A stretch of 64,000 nt of DNA from Gordonibacter massiliensis (ex Traore et al. 2017) (GCA_900170005.1 LT827128.1:3468168-3532167), one strand, 5' to 3'; numbered from the stretch's first letter, positions 8,365-21,462 are shown. Notes: generated by a model not told the origin, from the letters alone. A program made the numbers and translations.

Positions 8365-8796
8365 TTAATGCGAGCACATGGGCGCGTCGGGAAGGTCGAT
8401 CTTCAGGGCGCCGGCAGCCAGGCCGCGCAGTTCCTCGAGCGTCAGCTCGTAGCACGCCAAGGCGTCGATCCAGCGGCGCAGGCAGCGGCGGCCCTTGTCG
8501 GTGAGCGTGAACAGGCGCTTGGCGGAACCTTCCTCCGGCGTGTCCCATACCGAGGTGACCAGCTCGGCCTCCTCCATGCGCTTGAGGGCGCGGTAGATGC
8601 CGGTGGCGTCGGGCTTCTTGCCGCCGAACATGGGAGACTCGGCTGCCTGCTGCACGATGACGTAGCCGTGCAGCGGTTTGTCGGAGCAGGCGAGCAGGGT
8701 GAGGATAGTGGGCTGCGACAGGCGGTTAAGCGATTTTCCGAGTTCGGCGCATTCCTTCATATCTTCGTCGGACTTGGGATGGCAGCTGCTCCACAT
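8365..8796 (-). CDS. PadR-family transcriptional regulator
   Basis: A 143-aa winged-helix regulator of the PadR family. The pattern LTLLACSDKPLHGYVIVQQ followed by TGIYRALKRMEEAELVTS is the PadR winged helix, and the C-terminal segment (RCLRRWIDALACYELTLEEL) is the dimerisation helix. PadR proteins usually repress genes for phenolic stress, efflux or reductases and are released by a small ligand. The gene converges with the AOR operon and is divergent from nothing nearby, so its target cannot be deduced. I prefer the start at 8796 because AGAGGG lies 8 nt upstream; the internal ATG at 8760 has no ribosome site. The N-terminus is Cys/His-bearing (WSSCHPK). Confidence 0.85.
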   Translation of the reverse strand: MWSSCHPKSDEDMKECAELGKSLNRLSQPTILTLLACSDKPLHGYVIVQQAAESPMFGGKKPDATGIYRALKRMEEAELVTSVWDTPEEGSAKRLFTLTDKGRRCLRRWIDALACYELTLEELRGLAAGALKIDLPDAPMCSH

Positions 8797-9086: not shown

Positions 9087-10499
9087 TCAGATTCCCATGA
9101 CTCCCACGATGATCGGCACCCAGAATGTGATGAGGGCGATGAGCACCACGGCTGGCACGATGCCCGTTTTGAACATGTCGCCAAACGTGTAGTACCCTTC
9201 GCCGTACGTGAGCATGACGGTGGGGTTAACCGGCAAGAGCACGTTGCCTGCCACGACGATGGCGAGCGAGATGGTAGGCACGGCGGCGGAGACGCCGAAA
9301 CCTGCGCACAACGTGATGAAGATAGGGATGAAGATGGCGAGGATGGCCGCTCCGATGGGGCAGATGGTGTGCAGGATGTAAACGAGCGCCATGAGGATGG
9401 CGATGGACGCGAAGAAGCCCAGGCTCGTCACGCCGCTGCCCATGAACAGGTTGGCTAGGAACTCGGCACCTCCCGTGGCCTGCACGACGCCGCCGATGGT
9501 GAAGATGGTGCCGCACATGAGCACAATGCCCCACGGTACCGATTTCTGGAACTCTCCCCAGGTGAGCAGGTCGATACCCGGCAGGAACATGACGGTGAGG
9601 CCCACGAGGGCGACCACGGTGACGTTGAGCACGGGAATCCAGTTGCCGAGGATCCATAGCACCACGAGCAGCACGATCATGAGCAGCGCCTTGACGTCGT
9701 AGGCGCTCACCTTGGTCGATGCTGCCGCCTCGTCCCGGATGCCCTGCAGGCACGCGTCGGTGATGGGCTCCGGCTTGATGATCTTCGTGATGAAGAACCA
9801 GCAGATGGGCGTCATGATGATGGCGATGGGCAGGCCCACGATCATCCAATCGAAGAAGCTGATGGTCTGACCGGTGGTTTGCTGCAGTATCTGCATGGCT
9901 ACGACGTTGAACGAGCTGCCGGCCGGCGTCGCCACGCCGCCGGTGACGGCGGCCACAGGGACGGCGATCATGAGGTCTTTGCCGAGATTCGACTTGCCGG
10001 GCTCGGCTCCGGCGGCCTTCAAGATGGTGAGGGCGAAGCCGAGGAACAGCACGGTGGTGGGCACGTCGGACATGACGGTGGACACGAGCGTGGTGGCTAT
10101 CATGAAGCCTAGCACGAGTTTGCGCGAGTCAGAGCCCGTCCAGTTGAGCAGCTTCGCCATGAGGCGCACGCCCCACTTGGTCTTGCCCATGATGACCGGC
10201 AGCGAGAACACCGCGATGATGAAGAACAGCGGCGAACCGGCAAAGCCGGAGAACGCCTGCGACACGCTGTCCACGATGCCGAGCAGCGGCAGCATAATGA
10301 CCACGAATAGGGCAATGGCGCCGATAGGCAACGCCGAAGTCGCCCACATGGACGCGAGGGCGAGCAAGAGGCCAAGGGCCATGATGCCCTGATGGCTGAT
10401 GGCCTCTGAACCGGGAATGAGACACGAGCCGACGATGAACACGGCGGCGAGCGCGAGGCCGATGATGCGTTTGGTAAGAGGCACGGTGGTGCTTTCCAT
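9087..10499 (-). CDS. SLC13/DASS-family anion transporter
   Basis: A 470-aa integral membrane protein with about 11-12 hydrophobic helices, of the divalent anion:sodium symporter family (dicarboxylate, tricarboxylate or related anions). Family marks are the hairpin-loop motifs around 125-200 (SDVPTTVLFLGF and PAGSSFNVVAMQIL) and the second copy near 385-440 (CPIGAAILAIFIPI and LLPVNPTVMLTYG), matching the SNT/PTN substrate and sodium site pattern of the fold. The SD AAAAGGAGG precedes the ATG. It follows the transhydroxylase-like operon in the same orientation with a hairpin between, so it may import that enzyme's organic-acid substrate or export the product (inference). Confidence 0.88.
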   Translation of the reverse strand: MESTTVPLTKRIIGLALAAVFIVGSCLIPGSEAISHQGIMALGLLLALASMWATSALPIGAIALFVVIMLPLLGIVDSVSQAFSGFAGSPLFFIIAVFSLPVIMGKTKWGVRLMAKLLNWTGSDSRKLVLGFMIATTLVSTVMSDVPTTVLFLGFALTILKAAGAEPGKSNLGKDLMIAVPVAAVTGGVATPAGSSFNVVAMQILQQTTGQTISFFDWMIVGLPIAIIMTPICWFFITKIIKPEPITDACLQGIRDEAAASTKVSAYDVKALLMIVLLVVLWILGNWIPVLNVTVVALVGLTVMFLPGIDLLTWGEFQKSVPWGIVLMCGTIFTIGGVVQATGGAEFLANLFMGSGVTSLGFFASIAILMALVYILHTICPIGAAILAIFIPIFITLCAGFGVSAAVPTISLAIVVAGNVLLPVNPTVMLTYGEGYYTFGDMFKTGIVPAVVLIALITFWVPIIVGVMGI

Positions 10500-10632: not shown

Positions 10633-10674
10633 ATCGGGTCGGCTCCGGCTGCGAACGGCCTGAGCCGACCCGAT
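10633..10674 (-). terminator. Hairpin after the molybdoenzyme operon
   Basis: A perfect 13-bp stem (ATCGGGTCGGCTC, GAGCCGACCCGAT) lies 5 bp past the stop codon of the beta subunit. It probably ends or attenuates the operon before the transporter gene. Confidence 0.6.
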
Positions 10675-10678
10675 CGTG

Positions 10679-11500
10679 TTACTCGGCGGCGAACAGCTCC
10701 ACGGGCCCCATGTTGCGGTCCTCGTCGACCGTCGAGGCCTCGAGCACGCGCGTGAGGTAGCCGTCGGCCTCGAAGTACACGCGCCAGCTCGCGGCGGGCA
10801 CCTGGTGGAACCAGAAGTCCCCGAACCCGTCGGACTCGGCCGCCAGGACCTCGCCCGTGTCCAGGTTCTCGGCCGTGACCTTGGCGCCGGCCACCACCTC
10901 GTCGGCCTCCAGGTCCACGACGACGCCGGCCAGGAAGCGCTTGGGCAGGTTCAGGTAGTGCACGCGCGGCCGGTCGGCCGCCGCGCGCTCGGGCACGAGC
11001 GCCTCCGCCGCCGCGATCTCGGCCGCGAAGTCCTCCTCGTCGCCGAAGCGCAGGGCGCCGTGCGGGCACACGTCCACGCAGTGCGGCGGCTCCCCGGCGT
11101 CCACGAGGTGGGCGCAGCCGGTGCACTTCTGCGGGATGGCGAGCTCCTCGTTCCAGAAGATCGCGCCGTAGGGGCACGCCTCCGCGAGCTCCCTCTTCCC
11201 CTTCGCCTTCTCCGGGTCCACGATGACCAGACCGTCGTCGCGGCGGTAGACCGCGTCGGGCGCGGCGGCCATGCAGGGCGCGTCCTCGCAGTGCTGGCAC
11301 ATGCGCACCGTGTAGCTGATCTTGACCTTCGGCACCTGGCCGCGCACCTTCTCGTCCACGCGGCACCAGAACTGGCCCGTGTCCGGCTGCGGCTTGGCCC
11401 AGGGGCTCCAGTCGTTGTCGACGTGCTCGTCCTTGCAGGCTATCTGGCAGTTGCGGCAGCCGCTGCACTTGGCCACGTCGATGATGAACGCCTTTCCCAT
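10679..11500 (-). CDS. Transhydroxylase/dehydroxylase-type FeS beta subunit
   Basis: A 273-aa electron-transfer subunit with two parts. Residues 1-150 hold twelve suitably placed cysteines (12/15/18/22, 68/71/76, 109, 126/129/141/145), enough for three [4Fe-4S] clusters; the usual fourth position of the second group is Ala80, so one cluster of the four-cluster DmsB pattern is missing. Residues of about 185-265 form a beta-sandwich of the carboxypeptidase-regulatory or prealbumin kind (AGVVVDLEADEVVAGAKV, then TGEVLAAESDGFGDFWF). Three clusters plus a C-terminal beta domain is the plan of the pyrogallol-phloroglucinol transhydroxylase beta subunit. The start at 11500 is set by GGAAGGAG; the frame upstream is spurious. 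The catalytic partner lies 4 bp upstream. Confidence 0.9.
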   Translation of the reverse strand: MGKAFIIDVAKCSGCRNCQIACKDEHVDNDWSPWAKPQPDTGQFWCRVDEKVRGQVPKVKISYTVRMCQHCEDAPCMAAAPDAVYRRDDGLVIVDPEKAKGKRELAEACPYGAIFWNEELAIPQKCTGCAHLVDAGEPPHCVDVCPHGALRFGDEEDFAAEIAAAEALVPERAAADRPRVHYLNLPKRFLAGVVVDLEADEVVAGAKVTAENLDTGEVLAAESDGFGDFWFHQVPAASWRVYFEADGYLTRVLEASTVDEDRNMGPVELFAAE

Positions 11501-11504
11501 GGCT

Positions 11505-14117
11505 TTACGCTCCTTCCACAATACGGGCGGTCGCGACGAGGCCGCAATCGGGCTCGTAGTCGCGGTTGAACGCCTCGGGGTACTCTTCGGCCAGCTGGAA
11601 CACGTCGACCTTCTCAACGTTGACCAAGAAGCCGCTCGTCACTTCGCCGACGGTGTTCTTGGACGTGGTGGCCGTGGGGGCGATGAGGTTGTTCGCACCG
11701 CCGCGATCCAGGCCGTGCTCGCCCAGCTTGATGGTGTCGCAGCGCGAACCGTGGTCCTGGTACACCGCGCCCGGCATGATGCGCTCGGTCACGCGCACGC
11801 CGCCGAGCACCGCCCCGCGCTCGTTGTATATCTTCGCCACGTCGCCCGTCTCCAGGCCCAGCTTGCCGGCGTCGACGGGATGGATCCACAACGGCTCGTA
11901 CTTGTAGCCGTCGGGGCCGGTGACTTTGCATTCCTCCATCTCGCGGAACCACGTGACGTCATCATGCTGCGCGTGCACGCGGAAGTGCGGATGGTTCGAC
12001 ACGAGCAAAAACGGGAACTTGCGCCCGCGCTCCGTAGCCTGGCGCTCCTGGTGCGAGGGGCTTGTGGCCACCCAGCGGGGAATGGGCCCGCGCTCGTTGT
12101 CGTCGGGGAAGTTCTGGGCGAGCGTGGTGGAGTAGTACTCGAGCTTGCCGGACGGCGTCTTGAGGGGGTGTCCCTCGGGATCCTCGTAGAACTGGCTCAA
12201 GCCGGCGGGCAGCTCCTTCCAGTCCTCGCGCGTGGGGAAGGGGTAGTACTGCTTCTCTTTGAACTCCTCGAACGTGAGCTCTTCGGGCACGCCGCAGGTT
12301 TCGAAGCCGAACTCGATCCATTCGTCATCGGTCTTGCCGCCCAGGTAGCGATCGAGCAGGTTCTCGTACGGGCCGCCGAACTGCTCAAGCTTTTTGGCGA
12401 CCTCCGCCACGACTTCCTTGTCGGACTTCGACTCGCCCACGGGCTTGATGGCCTGGTGCTCGTAGAACACGACGTTCCATTGCCCCGAGTCGGAGTCGGT
12501 GCCGATGTCCTCGGTCTCGAACTTCGTGTTCGAGGGCAGGATGATGTCGGCGAACATGGTGTCGTTCTCCATCCAGGGGTGCTGCACGACCACGCATTCG
12601 ATGGACTCGTGGCGCAGCGCGTCCTGCATATGGAAGCCGCCGTTCCAGCACGTCTCCCAGCACGGCGTGTCGGACCACACCATGTGGATGCGCTCCTTGC
12701 CTTCGAGCGGGAACTGGAACGGGCCTGTGAACTGGTCTTCGCGCGGCAAGCCCGCAGACACGTGGCCGTACCACTGCACGGGCGGGTTCATGATGGCCTC
12801 GGGGATCATGGTCTTCGGGATGAAGCTGGGCTGCGAGCCGTGCACCCAGCCGCGGTAGGCGGCACCCAGGTTCGGGATCTTCGTGGAGGGCGGCAGCGGC
12901 GTGACGGTGGGCATGCCGAACAGCGTCCACTCGATGAACTTGAACTGGTTGGCACCGGGCTTGCCCACGCCCTGCATGCCCAAGAGCGCCACCTCCAAGC
13001 GCGCCGGTTCGTGCGAGAACGTGGAGCGGATGTAGGATCCGCCGTTGCAGTGGCCGATGGACACGGCGTGGCTCGCCCAGTAGCGGGCGAGGGCCTTGAT
13101 GGTGTAACTGGGAACACCGCAGATAGCCTCGGCCCACTTCGGCGTTTTCGGCACGCCGTCCTCCCCGCCCATGACGTAGTACTTGAAGTTCTCGAAGCCC
13201 ACGGCGTGCGTGTCGAGGTAGGCCTGGTCGTAGGTGCCCTCCTTGATCCACGTGTAGGCTATCGCCAGCTGCAGGGCCGCATCGGTGTTGGGAAGCACGG
13301 GGATCCACTTGTCGGCGTGCACGGCGTTCGTGTAGTTCACGTCGGGCGAGATGTGGATCTGCTTCACGCCGAGCTCGGTGAACCAGTAGCACAGGCGGCT
13401 GGCCATGTAGCCGCCCCAGCCGAGCGGCGTGGTCTCGACGTCGCAGCCCCAGAAGAGCACGGCGTCGCCGTTCTCCGAGATGTCCTTGATGATGTTGTTC
13501 TGCAGCGACTGTTGGCCCAGCGGGTCCATGCCCCAGACGTGCTTGGCTCCCCAGTACCAGCCTTCCCAGCTGTCGGGGTTGCGGGCTTGCGACGTGAAGC
13601 CGCCGCACAGCTCGAGCATCTTCACCATGCAGCCATGGGACGCGTGGACGATCTTCGTCTCGCCGTGGCCGTCGTACTCGCACAGCACTGATTCGGGGCC
13701 GTATTCGTCGTGTACGCGCTTGATCTCGTCGGCTACGAGCTGCGCGGCCTCGTCCCAGCTGATGCGCACGTAGCCGCTCGTGCCGCGCGTCTCGGGATGG
13801 CGCTCGCCGTTCGGGTCCCAATCCACGCGCTTGAGCGGGTAGGGGATGCGGTTCTTCGAGTACACGCGCTTCTTGTAGCACAGCGACAGCGGCGAGATGA
13901 GCGTCTTGAAGCCCGGCTCGAACGTCTTGCCGCGCGCCTCGATCTTCCAAGCGTTCAGGTCCTCCGGCGTGTAGTGCTCGTCGAAGTGGAACGGCCTGAT
14001 GCGCAGGATCTTGTCGTTCTCCTCGTCGATGTCGACCGTGCACGCGTTCGTGCCGATGCCGAAGCTGTTGAAGCCCAGGCCCTTCACGATGGGCGTGCCT
14101 TTCACGTTGTCTGTCAT
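11505..14117 (-). CDS. Transhydroxylase/catechol-dehydroxylase-like catalytic subunit
   Basis: An 870-aa bis-molybdopterin enzyme of the DMSO reductase superfamily without an N-terminal FeS motif or Tat signal, as in the cytoplasmic pyrogallol-phloroglucinol transhydroxylase alpha subunit. Strong marks of that clade are NPDSWEGWYWG (D182, S183; the transhydroxylase has Asp and the Mo-ligand Ser here) and VADKW/HADKW with NTDAALQLAIAYTWIKEG after it. An upstream GHGE (H151) lies about where that enzyme has its active-site His. The C-terminal cofactor domain (HPHFRVHAQHDD and PTATTSKNTVGEV) is present. Gut Eggerthellaceae catechol dehydroxylases fall in the same clade, so a phenolic substrate is likely (inference). 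I set the start at 14117 after GGAGAGGAG. Confidence 0.88.
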   Translation of the reverse strand: MTDNVKGTPIVKGLGFNSFGIGTNACTVDIDEENDKILRIRPFHFDEHYTPEDLNAWKIEARGKTFEPGFKTLISPLSLCYKKRVYSKNRIPYPLKRVDWDPNGERHPETRGTSGYVRISWDEAAQLVADEIKRVHDEYGPESVLCEYDGHGETKIVHASHGCMVKMLELCGGFTSQARNPDSWEGWYWGAKHVWGMDPLGQQSLQNNIIKDISENGDAVLFWGCDVETTPLGWGGYMASRLCYWFTELGVKQIHISPDVNYTNAVHADKWIPVLPNTDAALQLAIAYTWIKEGTYDQAYLDTHAVGFENFKYYVMGGEDGVPKTPKWAEAICGVPSYTIKALARYWASHAVSIGHCNGGSYIRSTFSHEPARLEVALLGMQGVGKPGANQFKFIEWTLFGMPTVTPLPPSTKIPNLGAAYRGWVHGSQPSFIPKTMIPEAIMNPPVQWYGHVSAGLPREDQFTGPFQFPLEGKERIHMVWSDTPCWETCWNGGFHMQDALRHESIECVVVQHPWMENDTMFADIILPSNTKFETEDIGTDSDSGQWNVVFYEHQAIKPVGESKSDKEVVAEVAKKLEQFGGPYENLLDRYLGGKTDDEWIEFGFETCGVPEELTFEEFKEKQYYPFPTREDWKELPAGLSQFYEDPEGHPLKTPSGKLEYYSTTLAQNFPDDNERGPIPRWVATSPSHQERQATERGRKFPFLLVSNHPHFRVHAQHDDVTWFREMEECKVTGPDGYKYEPLWIHPVDAGKLGLETGDVAKIYNERGAVLGGVRVTERIMPGAVYQDHGSRCDTIKLGEHGLDRGGANNLIAPTATTSKNTVGEVTSGFLVNVEKVDVFQLAEEYPEAFNRDYEPDCGLVATARIVEGA

Positions 14118-14213
14118 GTAGGTCTCCTCTCCTGCTTTCTGCGCCCGGTTCGTCGGCCGGGCGCGTGGCATCCCGGCTTGCGCAGTGCAAGGCCGGGATG
14201 GTGGTCCCCTTGG

Positions 14214-14456
14214 TTACGCGGTAGGCGCGGGCGGCTTGGGGGCCGAAGGCGCCTTCGGCACGCTCGGCACTTTCGGAGCGCCGGGCACGCCCGGAACCGG
14301 CGGCGGGGTTGGCGCTCCCGGAGGTGCGGGGATGCCGGGCGACGGCGCGGCCTTGGCGCCGCAGTTGGGGCATTCGTCGGCTGTGGGGTCGACTTCGGCA
14401 CCGCACTGGGGGCATTTCACGGGACCGTTATCGACGGTAGGGGGTCTGAAGCACAT
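14214..14456 (-). CDS. Small zinc-ribbon protein with Pro/Ala-rich tail
   Basis: An 80-aa protein. The first 40 residues hold a zinc-ribbon pair, CPQC (around 15-18) and CPNC (around 29-32). The rest is a low-complexity tail of Pro, Ala, Gly, Val and Lys (PPGAPTPPPVPGVPG and PKAPSAPKPPAP). GGAA before the ATG supports the start at 14456; the longer open frame upstream overlaps the ferredoxin gene and is spurious. It lies between the small ferredoxin and the transhydroxylase-like enzyme, so it is co-transcribed with both. Its role is unknown; an enzyme-specific chaperone or scaffold is possible. Confidence 0.75.
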   Translation of the reverse strand: MCFRPPTVDNGPVKCPQCGAEVDPTADECPNCGAKAAPSPGIPAPPGAPTPPPVPGVPGAPKVPSVPKAPSAPKPPAPTA

Positions 14457-14544
14457 GGCTCTTCCTTTCTGCGGGCGCATCCCGCATGGTTCGGGTCGTT
14501 CGATGCATGCACGTCGGACTGCGCGAGCAGCCGACGGTTGCAGC

Positions 14545-14880
14545 CTAACGGGGACGGACGAGCAGTTGGCGGGGTTTTTCGTCGAGCTTGCGCGCCAGCT
14601 CTTCCACAGGGCCGTACGCGAGAACGGCGGCTTGGCAGTGGTGCACGCAGGTTGGAAGCTTGCCTGCTTCGGTACGTGCGGCGCACAGATCGCATTCGTC
14701 CGTGAAGTTCGGCACGAACGAGTGTTGCCAATGGTCGCCCTCGATCTGCCAAGGGCCCAGCTGGGCCACGACCACGCCGTAGCGGCCGACGGGCAGCTTA
14801 TGCTCCATCTGGCAGGCCACCTCGCAAGCACGGCAGCCTGAGCACCATTCGTAGTCGACGAGTATTCCGAAAGCGGTCAT
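14545..14880 (-). CDS. Small ferredoxin-like FeS subunit
   Basis: A 111-aa protein with two cysteine groups, CSGCRACEVAC near the N-terminus (C13, C16, C19, C23) and CDLC plus CVHHC further on, which fits two [4Fe-4S] clusters. It resembles a truncated DmsB-type subunit that keeps only half of the usual clusters. It starts 2 bp after the stop of the acetylene-hydratase-like enzyme, so it is probably that enzyme's electron-transfer partner. It has no signal peptide. Confidence 0.85.
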   Translation of the reverse strand: MTAFGILVDYEWCSGCRACEVACQMEHKLPVGRYGVVVAQLGPWQIEGDHWQHSFVPNFTDECDLCAARTEAGKLPTCVHHCQAAVLAYGPVEELARKLDEKPRQLLVRPR

Positions 14881-14882
14881 GG

Positions 14883-17132
14883 CTACTCTCCTTCCCGGAC
14901 CTTGTACACGCGGCAGAGCAGCGTCTTGTAGTTGCTTCCCAAGCCGCTCTTTCCGGGTGTCCAGGTGATGAGCTGGTTGATGTTCATGTTCCAGAGGTCG
15001 AACAGGCCGTCCTCAAGCGCGGCGGGCGCTTCGGGGCGCCACCAGGCGTGATCGGTGGAGCACACGCGGGGGTCGAGCGCGTTCGTGGTGCGCACGCGCC
15101 GTTTGGCGCGACCGCGCTCGTTTTCCACCCAAGCCCAGTCGCCGTCCTCCAGGCCGTAGCGCGCGGCCGTCGCCGGGTTCATCTCGATGACGGGGTCGGG
15201 GTGCATAGCGCGTAGGTGCGGCACCTGACGGTGCTCGGAGTGGAACAGGCCCAGTTGGCGCGCGCCGGTGGTCAGCACGAGCGGGTAGGTTTCATAGGCA
15301 TCGGGCGTGCTGATGGGACCGGGCATGGGCTCCTCGAAGTAGGGCAGCGGGTCCAGGCCCACCATGCTGTAGAGCGTCGACCATAGTTCGATGCGGCCCG
15401 TGCCGGTTTCGAAGCCGGGCTTCCCGTCGGCTCGGATCAGGCCCTTCTCGTGCTTCTTGTACGTGAAGGGCAGGTAGGCCGGGGCGTTTTCCTGCAGTTC
15501 GGGGAACGTCATGCCCGTGTCCTTCAAGATGAACGTGAACATGTCCTCGACGGTATCCCATGGCCAGGCGTCGGCGTTGAAGCGCTTGCCCATCTCCAGG
15601 TTTATCTCCATGTCGGATTTGCATTCGCCGATGGTCGTCACCTTGTTGATGGACTCTCCGCGCTGCACGCCGTCGCCCACGCGAATGCCGTCGCGCTCGG
15701 GGAACGTGCATGCTGGCAGCAGCACGTCGGCCAGCGCCATGGCGGTGGGGGTCATGAACAGGTCCACCACCACGATGAACTCCAGCGTGTCGAGGGCGGC
15801 CAACGTGCGTTTCGGGTCGGGACCCGTGCAGGCCAGCGGGTTCGTGGTCTGCAACCAGCCCGCGCGCAGCTTGTAGGGTTTGCCCGTTTCCAACGTGTTG
15901 ATGGTCTCGTCGGTGGAAGCCGGGCCCATAGCTGCCTTGAACAGCGGATAGACGTCGTTGCCGATCTTCTTCTGCTGGCGGATTTCCTCGGGGATGAGCT
16001 CGCGGCCCCAGCCGGCGGCATAGTAGAGGATGGACGGCGGGGCTATCATGCCACCGGGCACGTCTACGTTGCCGGTGATCTCGAACAGCGCGCTGATGGC
16101 CTGGCCGGCCGGCAACGTCTCCTTCGTCATGTCCACGGCTACGCCCCACTGGACGATAGCTCCGTCGGCCGCGGCGAACGCGCGGGCCGCGGCGCGGATC
16201 TTGTCGGCGGGAACCCAGGTGATGCTCTCCACCTTCTCGGGCGTGAACGCACTCACGCGCTCGGCCAGCTCGTCGAAGCCGTAGCACCAACAGTCAACGA
16301 AGTCCTTGTCGTAGATGCCCTCTTCTATCATGACGTTGAGCATGCCCATGGCCAGCGCCGCGTCGGTGCCGGGGCGCAGCTGCAGGAACACCTCGGATTT
16401 GCTTGCGAGCCACGTGCGCTTCGGATCCACCACGATGATCTTGCTGCCGCGCTTCATGCAGTCGGTGACCCAGTGTCCGTACAGACCGTCGGAATTGGAC
16501 ACGACGGGATTGTTGCCCCAGATGAGAATCATGCCCGGCACGTTCCATTCCGGGTTGTCGTAGCGATCGGCGAACTGCTGGGAGTAATCGCCCAGCCAAA
16601 ACGCTCCGCTCGACACGCGGCAGCCAGCGATGCGCGGTGCGTAGCATGCGGTTCCGGACAGCGCCACCGTGTAGTTGGGGCTACCGTACGACCAGGCCAA
16701 ACGCGTGATCCACGGTGCGATGTCGCGTCCGGTGCCCTGCCAGAACGTCACGCATTCGGGCCCGTACTGATCGCGCAGCGCCAGGAACGTATCGGCGATC
16801 AGGTCGAATGCCTCGTCCCATGAGATGCGCTCCCAGGCGTCTTTGCCGCGCATCTCGCGAGCGCGCTTCATCGGGTGCGTCAGACGGTTCTCATGGTTGA
16901 CCACTTCTGGCAGCGCCAGACACCGTGCGCACAGCCTGCCTTGGTTGAACGGGTTCTCGCGGTCGCCCTCGACCTTCACGAGCCGGCCGTCCTCGTCGGT
17001 GTACATGAGCACGCCGCAGCCCAGGTGGCACCCCGGCCCCGTCCAAGCGCTGCCGCGGGTGACGGTGAGGTCGCCCTCTTCGTAGCGCAGCGGCTTCTCG
17101 TGCTCGACGAACGTGTATCCTCGATCCTCCAT
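14883..17132 (-). CDS. Acetylene-hydratase-like molybdopterin oxidoreductase
   Basis: A 749-aa bis-molybdopterin (Mo or W) enzyme of the DMSO reductase superfamily. It aligns by eye with acetylene hydratase and related Eggerthella oxidoreductases (ERISWDEAFD at 101-110, GTDAALAMGMLNVMI and DVLLPACTFPERDG). The N-terminal cluster site is unusual: GPGCHLGCG (C35, C39) and CARC (C68, C71), with Gly32 where the first cysteine of the usual C-x2-C-x3-C motif would be. C163 in SGTACYAPR is a candidate metal ligand, but alignment with the acetylene hydratase ligand is off by a few residues. No Tat signal is seen after the start at 17132; earlier in-frame starts read like leader DNA. The substrate is unknown. 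Confidence 0.88.
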   Translation of the reverse strand: MEDRGYTFVEHEKPLRYEEGDLTVTRGSAWTGPGCHLGCGVLMYTDEDGRLVKVEGDRENPFNQGRLCARCLALPEVVNHENRLTHPMKRAREMRGKDAWERISWDEAFDLIADTFLALRDQYGPECVTFWQGTGRDIAPWITRLAWSYGSPNYTVALSGTACYAPRIAGCRVSSGAFWLGDYSQQFADRYDNPEWNVPGMILIWGNNPVVSNSDGLYGHWVTDCMKRGSKIIVVDPKRTWLASKSEVFLQLRPGTDAALAMGMLNVMIEEGIYDKDFVDCWCYGFDELAERVSAFTPEKVESITWVPADKIRAAARAFAAADGAIVQWGVAVDMTKETLPAGQAISALFEITGNVDVPGGMIAPPSILYYAAGWGRELIPEEIRQQKKIGNDVYPLFKAAMGPASTDETINTLETGKPYKLRAGWLQTTNPLACTGPDPKRTLAALDTLEFIVVVDLFMTPTAMALADVLLPACTFPERDGIRVGDGVQRGESINKVTTIGECKSDMEINLEMGKRFNADAWPWDTVEDMFTFILKDTGMTFPELQENAPAYLPFTYKKHEKGLIRADGKPGFETGTGRIELWSTLYSMVGLDPLPYFEEPMPGPISTPDAYETYPLVLTTGARQLGLFHSEHRQVPHLRAMHPDPVIEMNPATAARYGLEDGDWAWVENERGRAKRRVRTTNALDPRVCSTDHAWWRPEAPAALEDGLFDLWNMNINQLITWTPGKSGLGSNYKTLLCRVYKVREGE

Positions 17133-17397
17133 CGTGATACCCTGCCCCCTTCTCGTCTTCTGATGCGGGTTCGCCCGTGGTCGTCGCCGTTGCGCGGCGT
17201 TTGCGAGCGGACCTTTCGCGCCTCGGTTCGCAAGGTTCGCCAAGGCGTCTTCGCGCTCTGCGGCGAGTCCTCTCGTTTGGTCCGAGTTCGTGGGGCACAG
17301 TATTTTTCGTCTGGCCAAAATAATCTACAACTGCTAAGGTTGAAAAAGGGTTTTTCGGAATTTCAATGTCATACGCAAATGTTGAGGTGATGTATTT
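17133..17397. promoter_or_regulatory. Divergent control region, molybdoenzyme operon and LuxR
   Basis: 265 bp between divergent starts. The stretch 17305-17397 is much more AT-rich than its surroundings and precedes the LuxR start, whose SD is GAGGTGA. No convincing -35/-10 pair or strong palindrome was identified by eye. The LuxR protein most likely acts here. Confidence 0.4.
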
Positions 17398-18900
17398 ATG
17401 GGGGCTTCACCTGCGGTTTCTTGTCCTGAGCGCACGCATACGCCGGGAGACTTGCTTTCGACGTACATCTTGGCGGGACTCGGTTTCGCCTGCCTTATCG
17501 GGTGGGAGCTGTCGGCGGTGTTCGGCCCGTCGCTTGCTTTGCTGAGCTTTTGCGACATGCGCGAGGCGGCGGCGCTGCGCATCGTTTCGGTGCTCACACT
17601 GGCGGCTACGTTCGGGTTCTATGCTTGGAAGGCCGACTGGGTTTTCGAGCACCGCAACCGCTTCCTCACCGTCGGATCTTTGCTGGCCCTCGTGGCAGTG
17701 GCGAACACGGTGGCGAACCTTGCGTTTTCCGGAATACCGCTTGCGGTGTCGGTGGCGGCATGGGCTCTTTTCGGGTTTGCGCAGGGCAGCATCATGATGT
17801 ACTGGTGCGTGTTCTTCAGCCTCATTCCCACCCGGCGCACGGCGGTGTCCATCGGTTTGGGATCGGCGCTCGGCACGCTCATGTTCGTGTTCGCGAACGC
17901 GTCCGACGCGCTATGGATGAACTTGGCCGAGATCGCGTTGCTCATTATCGGGTCGGTGACGCTTGTAGCGTTTCTGTCCACGCGCATCCCTCCGGATCGC
18001 ATTCTGCCGGTAAGCGCGTTCCATCGCACGTCCGTCCTCACGGTACCGGCGTCGCTGTCGGTGGCGTGCCATGGGGCGGTCTACGGCTTCATGGCCATTG
18101 CACTGTGTTCCATGGGTCCCGTCGCCGCTCTCGTGGGCGGCGCCAGCGGCTTGGTGGGAGGCGGGTTCGCACTGCTGTGGGGATACCTAGGGCCGAAGGT
18201 GGATATAGACACCGGCGTGGTGCAACGCATATCCCTGCCGTTTCTTGTGGCGGGCGTGTTGCTGTTTCCCCTGTTCGAAGGGGTAGGGCGTATGGTGTGC
18301 GGCTGCCTGGTCATCACGGCGCTCGCACACGCCTCCATCATCGCTTGGTACTCCACGAGTATCGACAACTACGAGTTCCGTCTGCATCCGGTCGACCGCT
18401 TCGCGTTGCGCGAGGCGCCTAATTGGGTCGGTTTTTTGCTGGGGTCCATCATCGCATACGTGTTCATCTTCACGGTTCACATTGACGGGTGGGCGTACGA
18501 TCTGGCCATGGCGGTGTTCGCGCTCGTGGTGGTGGTGGCGTTCTCCGTTTACGGAGGCAACGAGTCGCAGACGAAGAAGAGGCTGAATGCGCTGTTGACG
18601 CCTGCTCCTGTGGAGGCGCTCGTGTCGGGCGGAGGAGTGCAGGGCGAGGATGCGCCGACGGCTCCGCCCCGCTCGTTCAAGCAGCGTTGCGAGCGCGCCT
18701 CCGAACAGTACGGTCTGACGCCGCGGGAGGACGAGGTGTTTTTCCTGTTGGCCAAGGGGCGCAACGCCGAGTACATCGCCGAGCAGCTGGTGGTGAGCCC
18801 GGCCACGGTGAAATCCCATATCTACCACATCTACCGCAAGCTCGGTATCAACTCGCAGCAGCACCTCATGAACATCGTCGACGATTGCGAAGAGGAGTAG
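17398..18900 (+). CDS. LuxR-type regulator with 12-helix membrane domain
   Basis: A 500-aa protein. About twelve hydrophobic helices fill residues 15-390 in an MFS-like arrangement, followed by a linker and a LuxR/GerE helix-turn-helix at about 435-500 (LTPREDEVFFLLAKGRNAEYI, then SPATVKSHIYHIYRKLGI). Such membrane-bound LuxR proteins are abundant in Eggerthella and lie beside reductase operons, where they are thought to sense the substrate and activate the operon. Here it is divergent from the acetylene-hydratase-like/transhydroxylase-like operon, so that operon is the expected target (inference). GAGGTGA lies 7 nt before the ATG. There is no phosphorylatable receiver domain. Confidence 0.92.
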   Translation: MGASPAVSCPERTHTPGDLLSTYILAGLGFACLIGWELSAVFGPSLALLSFCDMREAAALRIVSVLTLAATFGFYAWKADWVFEHRNRFLTVGSLLALVAVANTVANLAFSGIPLAVSVAAWALFGFAQGSIMMYWCVFFSLIPTRRTAVSIGLGSALGTLMFVFANASDALWMNLAEIALLIIGSVTLVAFLSTRIPPDRILPVSAFHRTSVLTVPASLSVACHGAVYGFMAIALCSMGPVAALVGGASGLVGGGFALLWGYLGPKVDIDTGVVQRISLPFLVAGVLLFPLFEGVGRMVCGCLVITALAHASIIAWYSTSIDNYEFRLHPVDRFALREAPNWVGFLLGSIIAYVFIFTVHIDGWAYDLAMAVFALVVVVAFSVYGGNESQTKKRLNALLTPAPVEALVSGGGVQGEDAPTAPPRSFKQRCERASEQYGLTPREDEVFFLLAKGRNAEYIAEQLVVSPATVKSHIYHIYRKLGINSQQHLMNIVDDCEEE

Positions 18901-18950: not shown

Positions 18951-18982
18951 AACGGCCCGGCGAGAATCCTCGCCGGGCCGTT
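18951..18982. terminator. Bidirectional hairpin between luxR and a small gene
   Basis: A perfect 14-bp stem with AATC loop (arms 18951-18964 and 18969-18982) lies between convergent genes, about 50 bp after the luxR stop and 20 bp after the minus-strand gene's stop. Confidence 0.75.
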
Positions 18983-20160: not shown

Positions 20161-21462
20161 ATGGAGCAAAAGAAATCGTTCTACGGTTGGAAGTTGGCCG
20201 TGGTGCTGGGCATTATCTACTTCTGCTCGAGCGCGTTCGTGCTCGCGGCTGCCCAGATCGTGAATCCCATGATGTTCAAGTCGGGCGAGATCCAGATGGA
20301 CGCCACGATGCTCGGCATGGGTTTCACGCTGTTCGTGCTGTGCCAGGGCATCCCCACACCGCTTCTGGGCCAGCTCATTGCGAAGAAAGGCGCCCGTTTC
20401 ACCATGATCATTGGCGGCTGCGTCATGCTGTTGGGCACGCTGGCCATGTCGTTCTTCGTGCATGAGGCGTGGTCGTACTTCCTGTTCTTCGGCGTGCTCA
20501 TGTCCATGGGCTCCATGGCGCTGGGGCAGCTGTCCACCCAGACGGTGGCCGGCAGCTGGTTCATCGCGAACCGCGGCAAGGCCATGACCATCGTCATGGT
20601 TATCGGCGGCGCGGGCTCCATCTTGGCCCCGCAGATCGTCAAGGCCGCCATCGACGCCGCCGGCGGCGCGTGGCAGGCCGGCTGGTACGCACTCATCGCC
20701 GCCGCCCTCATTGGCTTGGTGCTGGCCGTCTTCCTGGTGAAGAACACGCCTGCTTCCATCGGCCAGCTGCCTGACGGCGTTGCCGACAGCAAAGCCGTCG
20801 TCGCCGAGGCCAAAGAGTCGAAGGTGTACAAGAACGCTGACAGCATAACGTATAAAAAAGCCCTCAAAACGCCGGCCATGTGGCTTATCGCCCTTACGTT
20901 GGCTGGAGGCTACACCGCTTTCAGCTTGAACACCTCGCAGGGCGTCATGAACTTCACGCAGCTCGGTTTCGACAACGGCCTTATCGTCACTGCCGTGTCG
21001 GTTATGGGATTCGCCATGCTCACCGGCCGTTTGGTGGTGGGTGTCATATCCGACCGCTTCGAGCCCATCCGCCTCATGGGGCTGTGCGGCGTCATGCTGT
21101 TCGTCGCCATCCTGTTGGGGGCGTTTGCCACGCCGAGCGCGCCGGTCATGATGTTCGGCTACTACATTTTGCTGGGCTTTTTCTTCGGCGCCATCAACAC
21201 GGTCGGCCCCACGGCGCTGGCCAATTACTTCGGCGCGGGCCACTACTCGAAGATTCTCAGCACGGGCATCATGGTGACCACGATCGTGTCCGCTCCCATC
21301 GCAACCATCGTGGGCGCCACGTTCGACGCCACGGGGGCCTGCACGACGGGCTTTCTCATCAGCGCCGGCATCGTGGCCGTTTGCACGATCTGCTCGCTGT
21401 TCGTGCGCCTTCCCAAGAAGGGCTCAGCCGCCGCGGCCGATCAGGACGAGGTGCGCGCCTAG
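20161..21462 (+). CDS. OFA-type MFS transporter
   Basis: A 433-aa membrane protein with 12 hydrophobic helices of the major facilitator superfamily, oxalate/formate-antiporter (OFA) branch. Branch marks are the N-terminal YGWKLAVVLGIIYF and the long helix 4-6 region (AGSWFIANRGKAMTIVMVIG). The conserved inter-helix motif after helix 8-9 is GRLVVGVISDRFEP. The start at 20161 has GGAGG 8 nt upstream; the longer open frame is leader. Substrates of this branch are small carboxylates. It lies 27 bp upstream of a FucI/AraA-like gene and then a SufS gene on the same strand, so the three probably form an operon. Confidence 0.88.
   Translation: MEQKKSFYGWKLAVVLGIIYFCSSAFVLAAAQIVNPMMFKSGEIQMDATMLGMGFTLFVLCQGIPTPLLGQLIAKKGARFTMIIGGCVMLLGTLAMSFFVHEAWSYFLFFGVLMSMGSMALGQLSTQTVAGSWFIANRGKAMTIVMVIGGAGSILAPQIVKAAIDAAGGAWQAGWYALIAAALIGLVLAVFLVKNTPASIGQLPDGVADSKAVVAEAKESKVYKNADSITYKKALKTPAMWLIALTLAGGYTAFSLNTSQGVMNFTQLGFDNGLIVTAVSVMGFAMLTGRLVVGVISDRFEPIRLMGLCGVMLFVAILLGAFATPSAPVMMFGYYILLGFFFGAINTVGPTALANYFGAGHYSKILSTGIMVTTIVSAPIATIVGATFDATGACTTGFLISAGIVAVCTICSLFVRLPKKGSAAAADQDEVRA

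Follow-up and report, generated by a model that had tools for sequence, protein, structure and literature searches.

Introduction

Gordonibacter and its relatives convert plant polyphenols to health-relevant metabolites, and to our knowledge the majority of their molybdoenzymes have not been matched to a substrate. In this study, a 64-kb stretch within the complete 3.95-Mb chromosome of Gordonibacter massiliensis (LT827128.1:3468168-3532167; hereafter the window, with positions counted from its first letter) was analysed, in which two distinct bis(molybdopterin guanine dinucleotide) (bis-MGD) enzymes, a catechol-dehydroxylase homologue (CDH) and a transhydroxylase-like alpha/beta enzyme (TH type; THab, with subunits THa and THb, in the window), are encoded in one cluster. 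In a published tree, the gut catechol dehydroxylases group with acetylene hydratase and apart from pyrogallol hydroxytransferase (PMC7028382), and a 4Fe-4S protein gene beside the dehydroxylase gene is a described trait of the Gordonibacter-type enzymes (PMC12771579). In Eggerthella lenta, LuxR regulators with 10-12 transmembrane helices (DadR, HcdR and CadR) switch on the dehydroxylases (PMC9734109). For the second enzyme type, the characterised Ser-ligated relatives, transhydroxylase and resorcinol hydroxylase, add hydroxyls to phenols (PMC10100899), and the phloroglucinol pathway, including its triacetate-cleaving step, has been described (PMC10470551). Our search of the open literature found no paper on a transhydroxylase-like enzyme of Coriobacteriia. 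Here we report that the TH and CDH enzyme types are coupled across genomes, and we weigh what the pair at this locus may do.

A cluster encoding two bis-MGD enzymes

The genes at the centre of the cluster are listed below.

14883-17132, minus strand: CDH, Gordonibacter-type catechol-dehydroxylase homologue by tree, signature and Pfam; bis-MGD catalytic subunit, 749 aa
14545-14880, minus strand: Fd, 8-Cys ferredoxin (by Cys count) that travels with CDH and is presumed to be its small subunit or its electron donor, 111 aa
14214-14456, minus strand: ZnR, MCFRPP zinc-ribbon protein with a Pro/Ala-rich tail (PF13240 above cut-off), 80 aa; candidate maturation factor
11505-14117, minus strand: THa, alpha subunit of the transhydroxylase-like bis-MGD enzyme, 870 aa; Mo ligand by alignment, Ser183
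10679-11500, minus strand: THb, beta subunit with three [4Fe-4S] sites and a C-terminal beta-sandwich, 273 aa

The gaps along CDH-Fd-ZnR-THa-THb measured 2, 88, 96 and 4 bp, and 179 bp separated THb from the gene of an SLC13 carrier. Because this 179-bp gap and a 17-nt inverted repeat precede the SLC13 gene, its co-transcription with the cluster is less certain. Gene calls based on open reading frame (ORF) length on the high-GC flanks were judged unreliable and were excluded. The same gene set in the same order was found in a congener (locus L185), with identities of 93% for CDH, 96% for THa and 83% for the divergently encoded LuxR regulator. Therefore, the conservation of the whole operon order indicates that the arrangement is more than chance. 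The first-pass annotation of the window had described two distinct bis-pterin enzymes in one operon, and this gene content, with both bis-MGD enzymes in one regulated cluster, was confirmed by ORFs, Pfam and searches for relatives of solved structure; the SLC13 and LuxR genes fall outside the span of 10679-17132 that it had covered.

Assignment of CDH to the catechol dehydroxylases

PF00384, PF01568 and PF04879 were all found above cut-off in CDH, the start of which carries a GPGCHxGCG signature; Cys163 was noted in the alignment, and no twin-arginine motif was seen by eye in the N-terminus, MEDRGYTFVEHEKPL. The closest solved structure was acetylene hydratase (2e7z, E=6e-89, identity 32%), and among the solved structures matched by CDH no dehydroxylase was named. 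In a 75-row tree, CDH fell inside the Gordonibacter-type dehydroxylase family, in a 28-row subclade with a support of 99, and acetylene hydratase and FdhF were placed outside its clade. The dehydroxylase anchors in this tree were assigned by genome position, not by accession: for Eldh, two adjacent genes of G. pamelaeae 7-10-1-b (2.586-2.591 Mb) were used, a position that fits the tags GPA_25800/25810 (PMC11887054), and for Eadh, two conserved dehydroxylases of the host genome (717-737 kb) that enclose an amidohydrolase, like the eam cluster (PMC12771579). CDH is 46-48% identical to these putative (+)-Eldh1/2 and Eadh1-3, the nearest putatively identified characterised enzymes. Moreover, the catalytic Asp13 of acetylene hydratase was found to be His in 69 of the 69 aligned family members (His36 in CDH), and the Fd gene adjoining CDH encodes 8 Cys, equal to two [4Fe-4S] sites. 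Collectively, the sequence evidence assigns CDH to the Gordonibacter-type catechol-dehydroxylase family.

The earlier statement, which placed the gut catechol dehydroxylases in the transhydroxylase clade, was contradicted both by the published tree (PMC7028382) and by the tree made here. The two trees agree, and it is the other enzyme of the operon, CDH, that is the dehydroxylase-type one. Likewise, the label acetylene-hydratase-like is correct for CDH as to the nearest solved structure only, and fails by clade and by the change of Asp13 to His.

Further genes of this kind were seen on the host chromosome (G000:C1), where each of two queries matched more than 100 segments and at least 34 dehydroxylase-type and 6 TH-type genes were present. 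The region G000:C1:717575-737230, with two dehydroxylases around an amidohydrolase, is a probable ellagic-acid (eam) cluster, and the host is therefore probably a urolithin producer. Two nearly identical dehydroxylase-type genes, G000:C1:2143664-2146066 and G000:C1:2760085-2762490 (L168 and L169), lie ~0.6 Mb apart; one of them has a TAG in the C-terminal part, and by appearance the pair is a recent duplication.

Assignment of THab to a sister clade of AthL

THa carries the motif NPDSWEGW and, above cut-off, PF21423 (AthL large subunit domain 1). The closest solved relatives were AthL for THa (4v4c_A, E=5.5e-125) and the AthL small subunit for THb (E=4.3e-53), and THb was found to have 12 cysteines for the clusters, one further cysteine and, at its C-terminus, a PF13620 sandwich. 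Fold comparison with an AlphaFold model of THa also returned AthL as the closest, the model being moderate (mean pLDDT 64.5, active-site loops <50) and used for the fold-level match only. A tree of 51 rows placed THa in a clade of 46 members (100/99), the sister of the clade formed by AthL and proteobacterial plasmid enzymes (100/100); with these supports, THab was judged not to be a member of the AthL clade. The hallmarks of an alpha/beta transhydroxylase reported in the first-pass annotation were recovered as the NPDSWEGW motif, the clusters and the sandwich, with the correction that THa stands beside the AthL clade, not inside it. His144, Asp174, Ser175 and Glu177 (AthL numbering) were invariant in 46 of the 46 clade members and Trp176 nearly so; Ser175 we take to be the Mo ligand. 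Judged by sequence and tree, THab is a member of the transhydroxylase family if this is taken broadly, in a sister clade of AthL.

A search of a plasmid collection for relatives of the resorcinol hydroxylase type returned AthL-like proteobacterial enzymes of unassigned function and S/N-oxide reductases only. The plasmid AthL-like alpha subunits of Burkholderia, Ensifer and Salipiger (L290:3617-6595, L291:3617-6610 and L292:3572-6553) have an extra N-terminal region of >100 residues, and CoA-ligase, VOC or short-chain-dehydrogenase genes lie alongside.

Pairing of the two enzyme types

The presence of TH and CDH was compared in 99 Eggerthellaceae genomes; both were found in 35, TH only in 3, CDH only in 4 and neither in 57, counts inflated by shared ancestry, and the same table collapsed to 48 genera read 17/1/2/28 (P=7e-10). 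TH-CDH pairs were also found, among other places, in the Coriobacteriia loci L002, L003, L004, L017 and L036 and, with the gene order swapped, in a locus of Anaerolineales (Chloroflexota; L028). At 17 of the 79 TH loci, many of the contigs being short, a CDH gene lay within 6 kb. Orthologues of the window's TH enzyme (~80% identity) were paired with at least 3 CDH subtypes, which are about 93%, 65% and 49% identical to the CDH of the window, and the CDH gene was located 5′ of TH (window, L003 and L187), 3′ of it (L296) or on the other strand (L297 and L302). This re-pairing of TH with different CDHs supports a coupling independently of the ancestry-inflated counts.

Proximity was assessed against random placement, with the clustering of CDH genes kept, in two complete genomes at three cut-offs each (weakest P=0.25): in one, 3 of the 6 TH genes lay within 3 kb of a CDH gene (P=0.008), and in the second, 3 of the 5 lay within 7 kb (P=0.009). 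Co-occurrence, proximity statistics and recurring pairing together bear out the functional link between the two enzymes that had been proposed. These results demonstrated that the TH and CDH enzyme types are coupled; since their pairing recurs in many related bacteria, a joint action of CDH and THab on a plant phenolic is probable.

Beside these cassettes, a gene of a PadR-type regulator (window 8365-8796, minus strand; 85-100% conserved) adjoins various TH cassettes in several genomes, with copies at L296:2717-3145, L298:16103-16528, L013:12751, L011:12539 and L053:5718, which suggests that it marks a fixed chromosomal site where TH cassettes change.

Regulatory elements and carriers of the locus

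The elements flanking the central genes are as follows.

17398-18900, plus strand: divergent LuxR regulator with a hydrophobic multi-transmembrane N-terminal region and a C-terminal GerE domain
17317-17344, minus strand: block TTCAACCTTAGCAGTTGTAGATTATTTT, conserved in the region separating LuxR from CDH; operator or promoter candidate
10633-10674, minus strand: 17-nt inverted repeat, 94% complementary and without a T run, 3′ of THb; possible terminator or attenuator before SLC13
9087-10499, minus strand: SLC13/DASS anion carrier (PF00939), presumed importer
20161-21462, plus strand: MFS carrier, which co-occurs with the locus; the frame is open from 19957, with the start probably near 20161

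In LuxR, PF00196 was found above cut-off at residues 440-492, and the hydropathy profile gave hydrophobic stretches over residues 17-391, in which helices were not reliably countable. Immediately 3′ of LuxR (18951-18982, plus strand), a GC-rich hairpin of 14 pairs that ends in a T-rich tail is a likely terminator. The 28-nt block at 17317-17344 was common to L185, L188/L069 and L296, in the same place, and a scan for sigma-70 promoters found nothing. A constant co-variation of the LuxR sensor with CDH was considered and rejected, being true in types A and B and broken by L296 (LuxR 68%, CDH 49%).

The SLC13 protein scored 129 bits against PF00939 (cut-off 27) and 186.8 bits against TIGR00785, just below the cut-off of 198.6. 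An SLC13 gene lay beside TH at 22 of the 79 loci, and this recurrent linkage suggests an anionic substrate. The phenolic or organic-acid substrate put forward in the first-pass annotation stands as a theme, in which the SLC13 linkage speaks for an anion and not for a phenolic one in particular.

A zinc-ribbon family adjoining both enzymes

ZnR represents a family of proteins that start with MCFRP(P/A), contain two CxxC-type pairs and often end in a Pro/Ala-rich tail. Pfam identified only a generic zinc ribbon in ZnR (PF13240), and in a literature search with the MCFRP motif string no relevant paper contained such a motif and no family description was found. The corresponding DNA signature occurred 14 times in the host genome, whereas the reversed pattern gave 0 occurrences, and 13 of the 14 signatures lay <=4 kb from a molybdoenzyme gene, compared with a mean of 2.5 and a maximum of 9 in 20,000 random placements. 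MCFRP genes adjoin both TH-type and CDH-type genes, also in Sporomusa and Moorella. Across the 99 genomes, the family and at least one of the two enzymes were both present in 39, the family alone in 1, an enzyme alone in 3 and neither in 56; that is, MCFRP was found in 39 of the 42 genomes with either enzyme. It was recorded in genomes G000-G006, G047, G105 and G106, reaching 10-24 copies in the richest ones, with nearly every copy adjoining a molybdoenzyme gene of the TH or CDH type. Three genomes that lack both TH and a cytoplasmic-type CDH have no MCFRP(P/A) gene; one of the three is probably Eggerthella lenta. An identity of ZnR with the published DadhE was judged unlikely, the motif being missing from Eggerthella-like genomes. 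The MCFRPP protein may be a maturation or assembly factor for cytoplasmic-type CDH and TH.

Discussion

Our preferred reading, held tentatively and at somewhat below an even chance, is that the cluster encodes a substrate-induced cytoplasmic two-enzyme module for hydroxyl rearrangement on an imported, probably carboxylated phenolic. The membrane LuxR protein would sense the compound and activate the cluster, as do the members of the DadR/HcdR/CadR family (PMC9734109), and SLC13 and/or the adjacent MFS carrier would import it. CDH with its two-cluster ferredoxin would reductively remove a para hydroxyl from a catechol, as expected from its family. The Ser-ligated THab would act on either the substrate or the product in a second hydroxyl step; its likeliest reaction is hydroxylation of the ring or transfer of a hydroxyl, with electrons carried by the three THb clusters. 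The MCFRPP zinc-ribbon protein would mature or assemble such cytoplasmic enzymes. Hydroxyl addition or transfer is favoured for THab because its characterised Ser-ligated relatives do so (PMC10100899).

Several observations weigh against this two-enzyme module. The co-occurrence counts are raised by shared ancestry, as noted above, and the TH loci L298-L301 have no CDH nearby, so that TH can do without an adjacent CDH. The substrates for which SLC13 carriers are best known are sulfate and di- and tricarboxylates rather than phenolic acids. Of the residues Tyr152, Arg153, Trp354 and Tyr404, which we take to form the substrate pocket of AthL, the first three are not kept in the THa clade and Tyr404 is probably lost; its position adjoins a gap of 12 residues and is occupied by Trp or Pro, depending on the alignment. 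In addition, SHHMW of AthL is DGHGE in the THa clade, and the proteobacterial enzymes retain most of the AthL pocket. Given these pocket changes and the kept Ser/His/Asp core, phenol hydroxyl chemistry on another substrate than that of AthL is plausible for THab, and pyrogallol transhydroxylation is unsupported.

Two reductive steps in series form a serious rival, in which both enzymes would be reductive dehydroxylases acting on one polyphenol and the THab clade would have evolved to dehydroxylate a position out of the reach of CDH. The altered THab pocket would allow such an altered reaction, but we know of no dehydroxylating member of this clade. The rival is serious because it has a precedent in the genus, Eadh1 and Eadh2 acting on urolithin M5 and M6 from one induced cluster (PMC12771579), whereas the characterised Ser-ligated relatives of THab add or transfer hydroxyls (PMC10100899); on balance, we consider it unlikely.

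Rather improbable is a second alternative, that the enzymes have unrelated substrates and are neighbours because cassettes for dehydroxylases and carriers accumulate at hot spots. CDH genes are indeed clustered in these genomes, TH loci without CDH exist and the PadR gene appears to mark a site of differing TH cassettes, but random placement with the clustering kept gave far fewer neighbours, TH and CDH are jointly present across genera, and their pairing persists while CDH is replaced or moved, and also in Chloroflexota (L028). We give little credence to a split transhydroxylation, in which THab would add a water-derived hydroxyl and CDH would spend the electrons on removing another (para), with the MCFRPP factor serving both; a hydroxyl would thereby be relocated on the aromatic ring with no net redox change. 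Very unlikely is a gallate/pyrogallol route of the Pelobacter type, with THab making phloroglucinol for ring cleavage and growth: the AthL-like alpha/beta architecture and core motif would suit it, but THab does not retain the AthL pocket, THa branches beside the AthL clade, CDH would be left without a role, and PF05853 (the triacetate-cleaving enzyme family of the phloroglucinol pathway, other enzymes of which were not searched) is absent from the genome. Finally, the view that CDH is an acetylene hydratase is rejected with near certainty, as the nearest-structure match to 2e7z, at only 32% identity, stands against the clade and the invariant His at Asp13.

Returning to the two-enzyme module, its wider interest lies in the large uncharacterised TH clade beside transhydroxylase, found in 38 of the 99 Eggerthellaceae genomes and in some Bacillota and Chloroflexota. 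The locus ties this clade to the catechol dehydroxylases, with a small accessory family common to both, and the MCFRPP protein, if it is a maturation factor, might ease the heterologous expression of such enzymes.

Comparison with described systems

AthL of Pelobacter acidigallici (4v4c) shares with THab the alpha/beta architecture, PF21423, the Ser, His144 and Asp174, and its small subunit has the same three clusters and beta-sandwich as THb; the AthL pocket (Tyr152, Arg153, Trp354, probably Tyr404, and SHHMW) is absent from THab, and the host genome contains no phloroglucinol-pathway marker. The resorcinol hydroxylase RhL, a Ser-ligated phenol hydroxylase, falls by description (PMC10100899) in the same superfamily branch as THab. 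DadR, HcdR and CadR, like the LuxR protein here, have a hydrophobic N-terminal region and a C-terminal LuxR-type domain and are encoded beside a molybdoenzyme, a likeness of architecture only. The DadhE-type accessory proteins (PMC11887054) resemble the MCFRP(P/A) family in being encoded by a small gene beside dehydroxylase genes. The Gordonibacter-type dehydroxylases, namely (+)-Eldh1/2, Eadh1/2/3 and (-)-Eddh/Cldh (PMC11887054, PMC12771579), are, like CDH, bis-MGD enzymes of the cytoplasmic type with a GPGCHxGCG-type start, and they are accompanied, as at this locus, by an adjacent 4Fe-4S protein gene and nearby LuxR and MFS genes. CDH differs from the Eldh and Eadh anchors in its 46-48% identity to them, in its own 28-row subclade, and in having as cluster partners a transhydroxylase-like enzyme and an SLC13 carrier.

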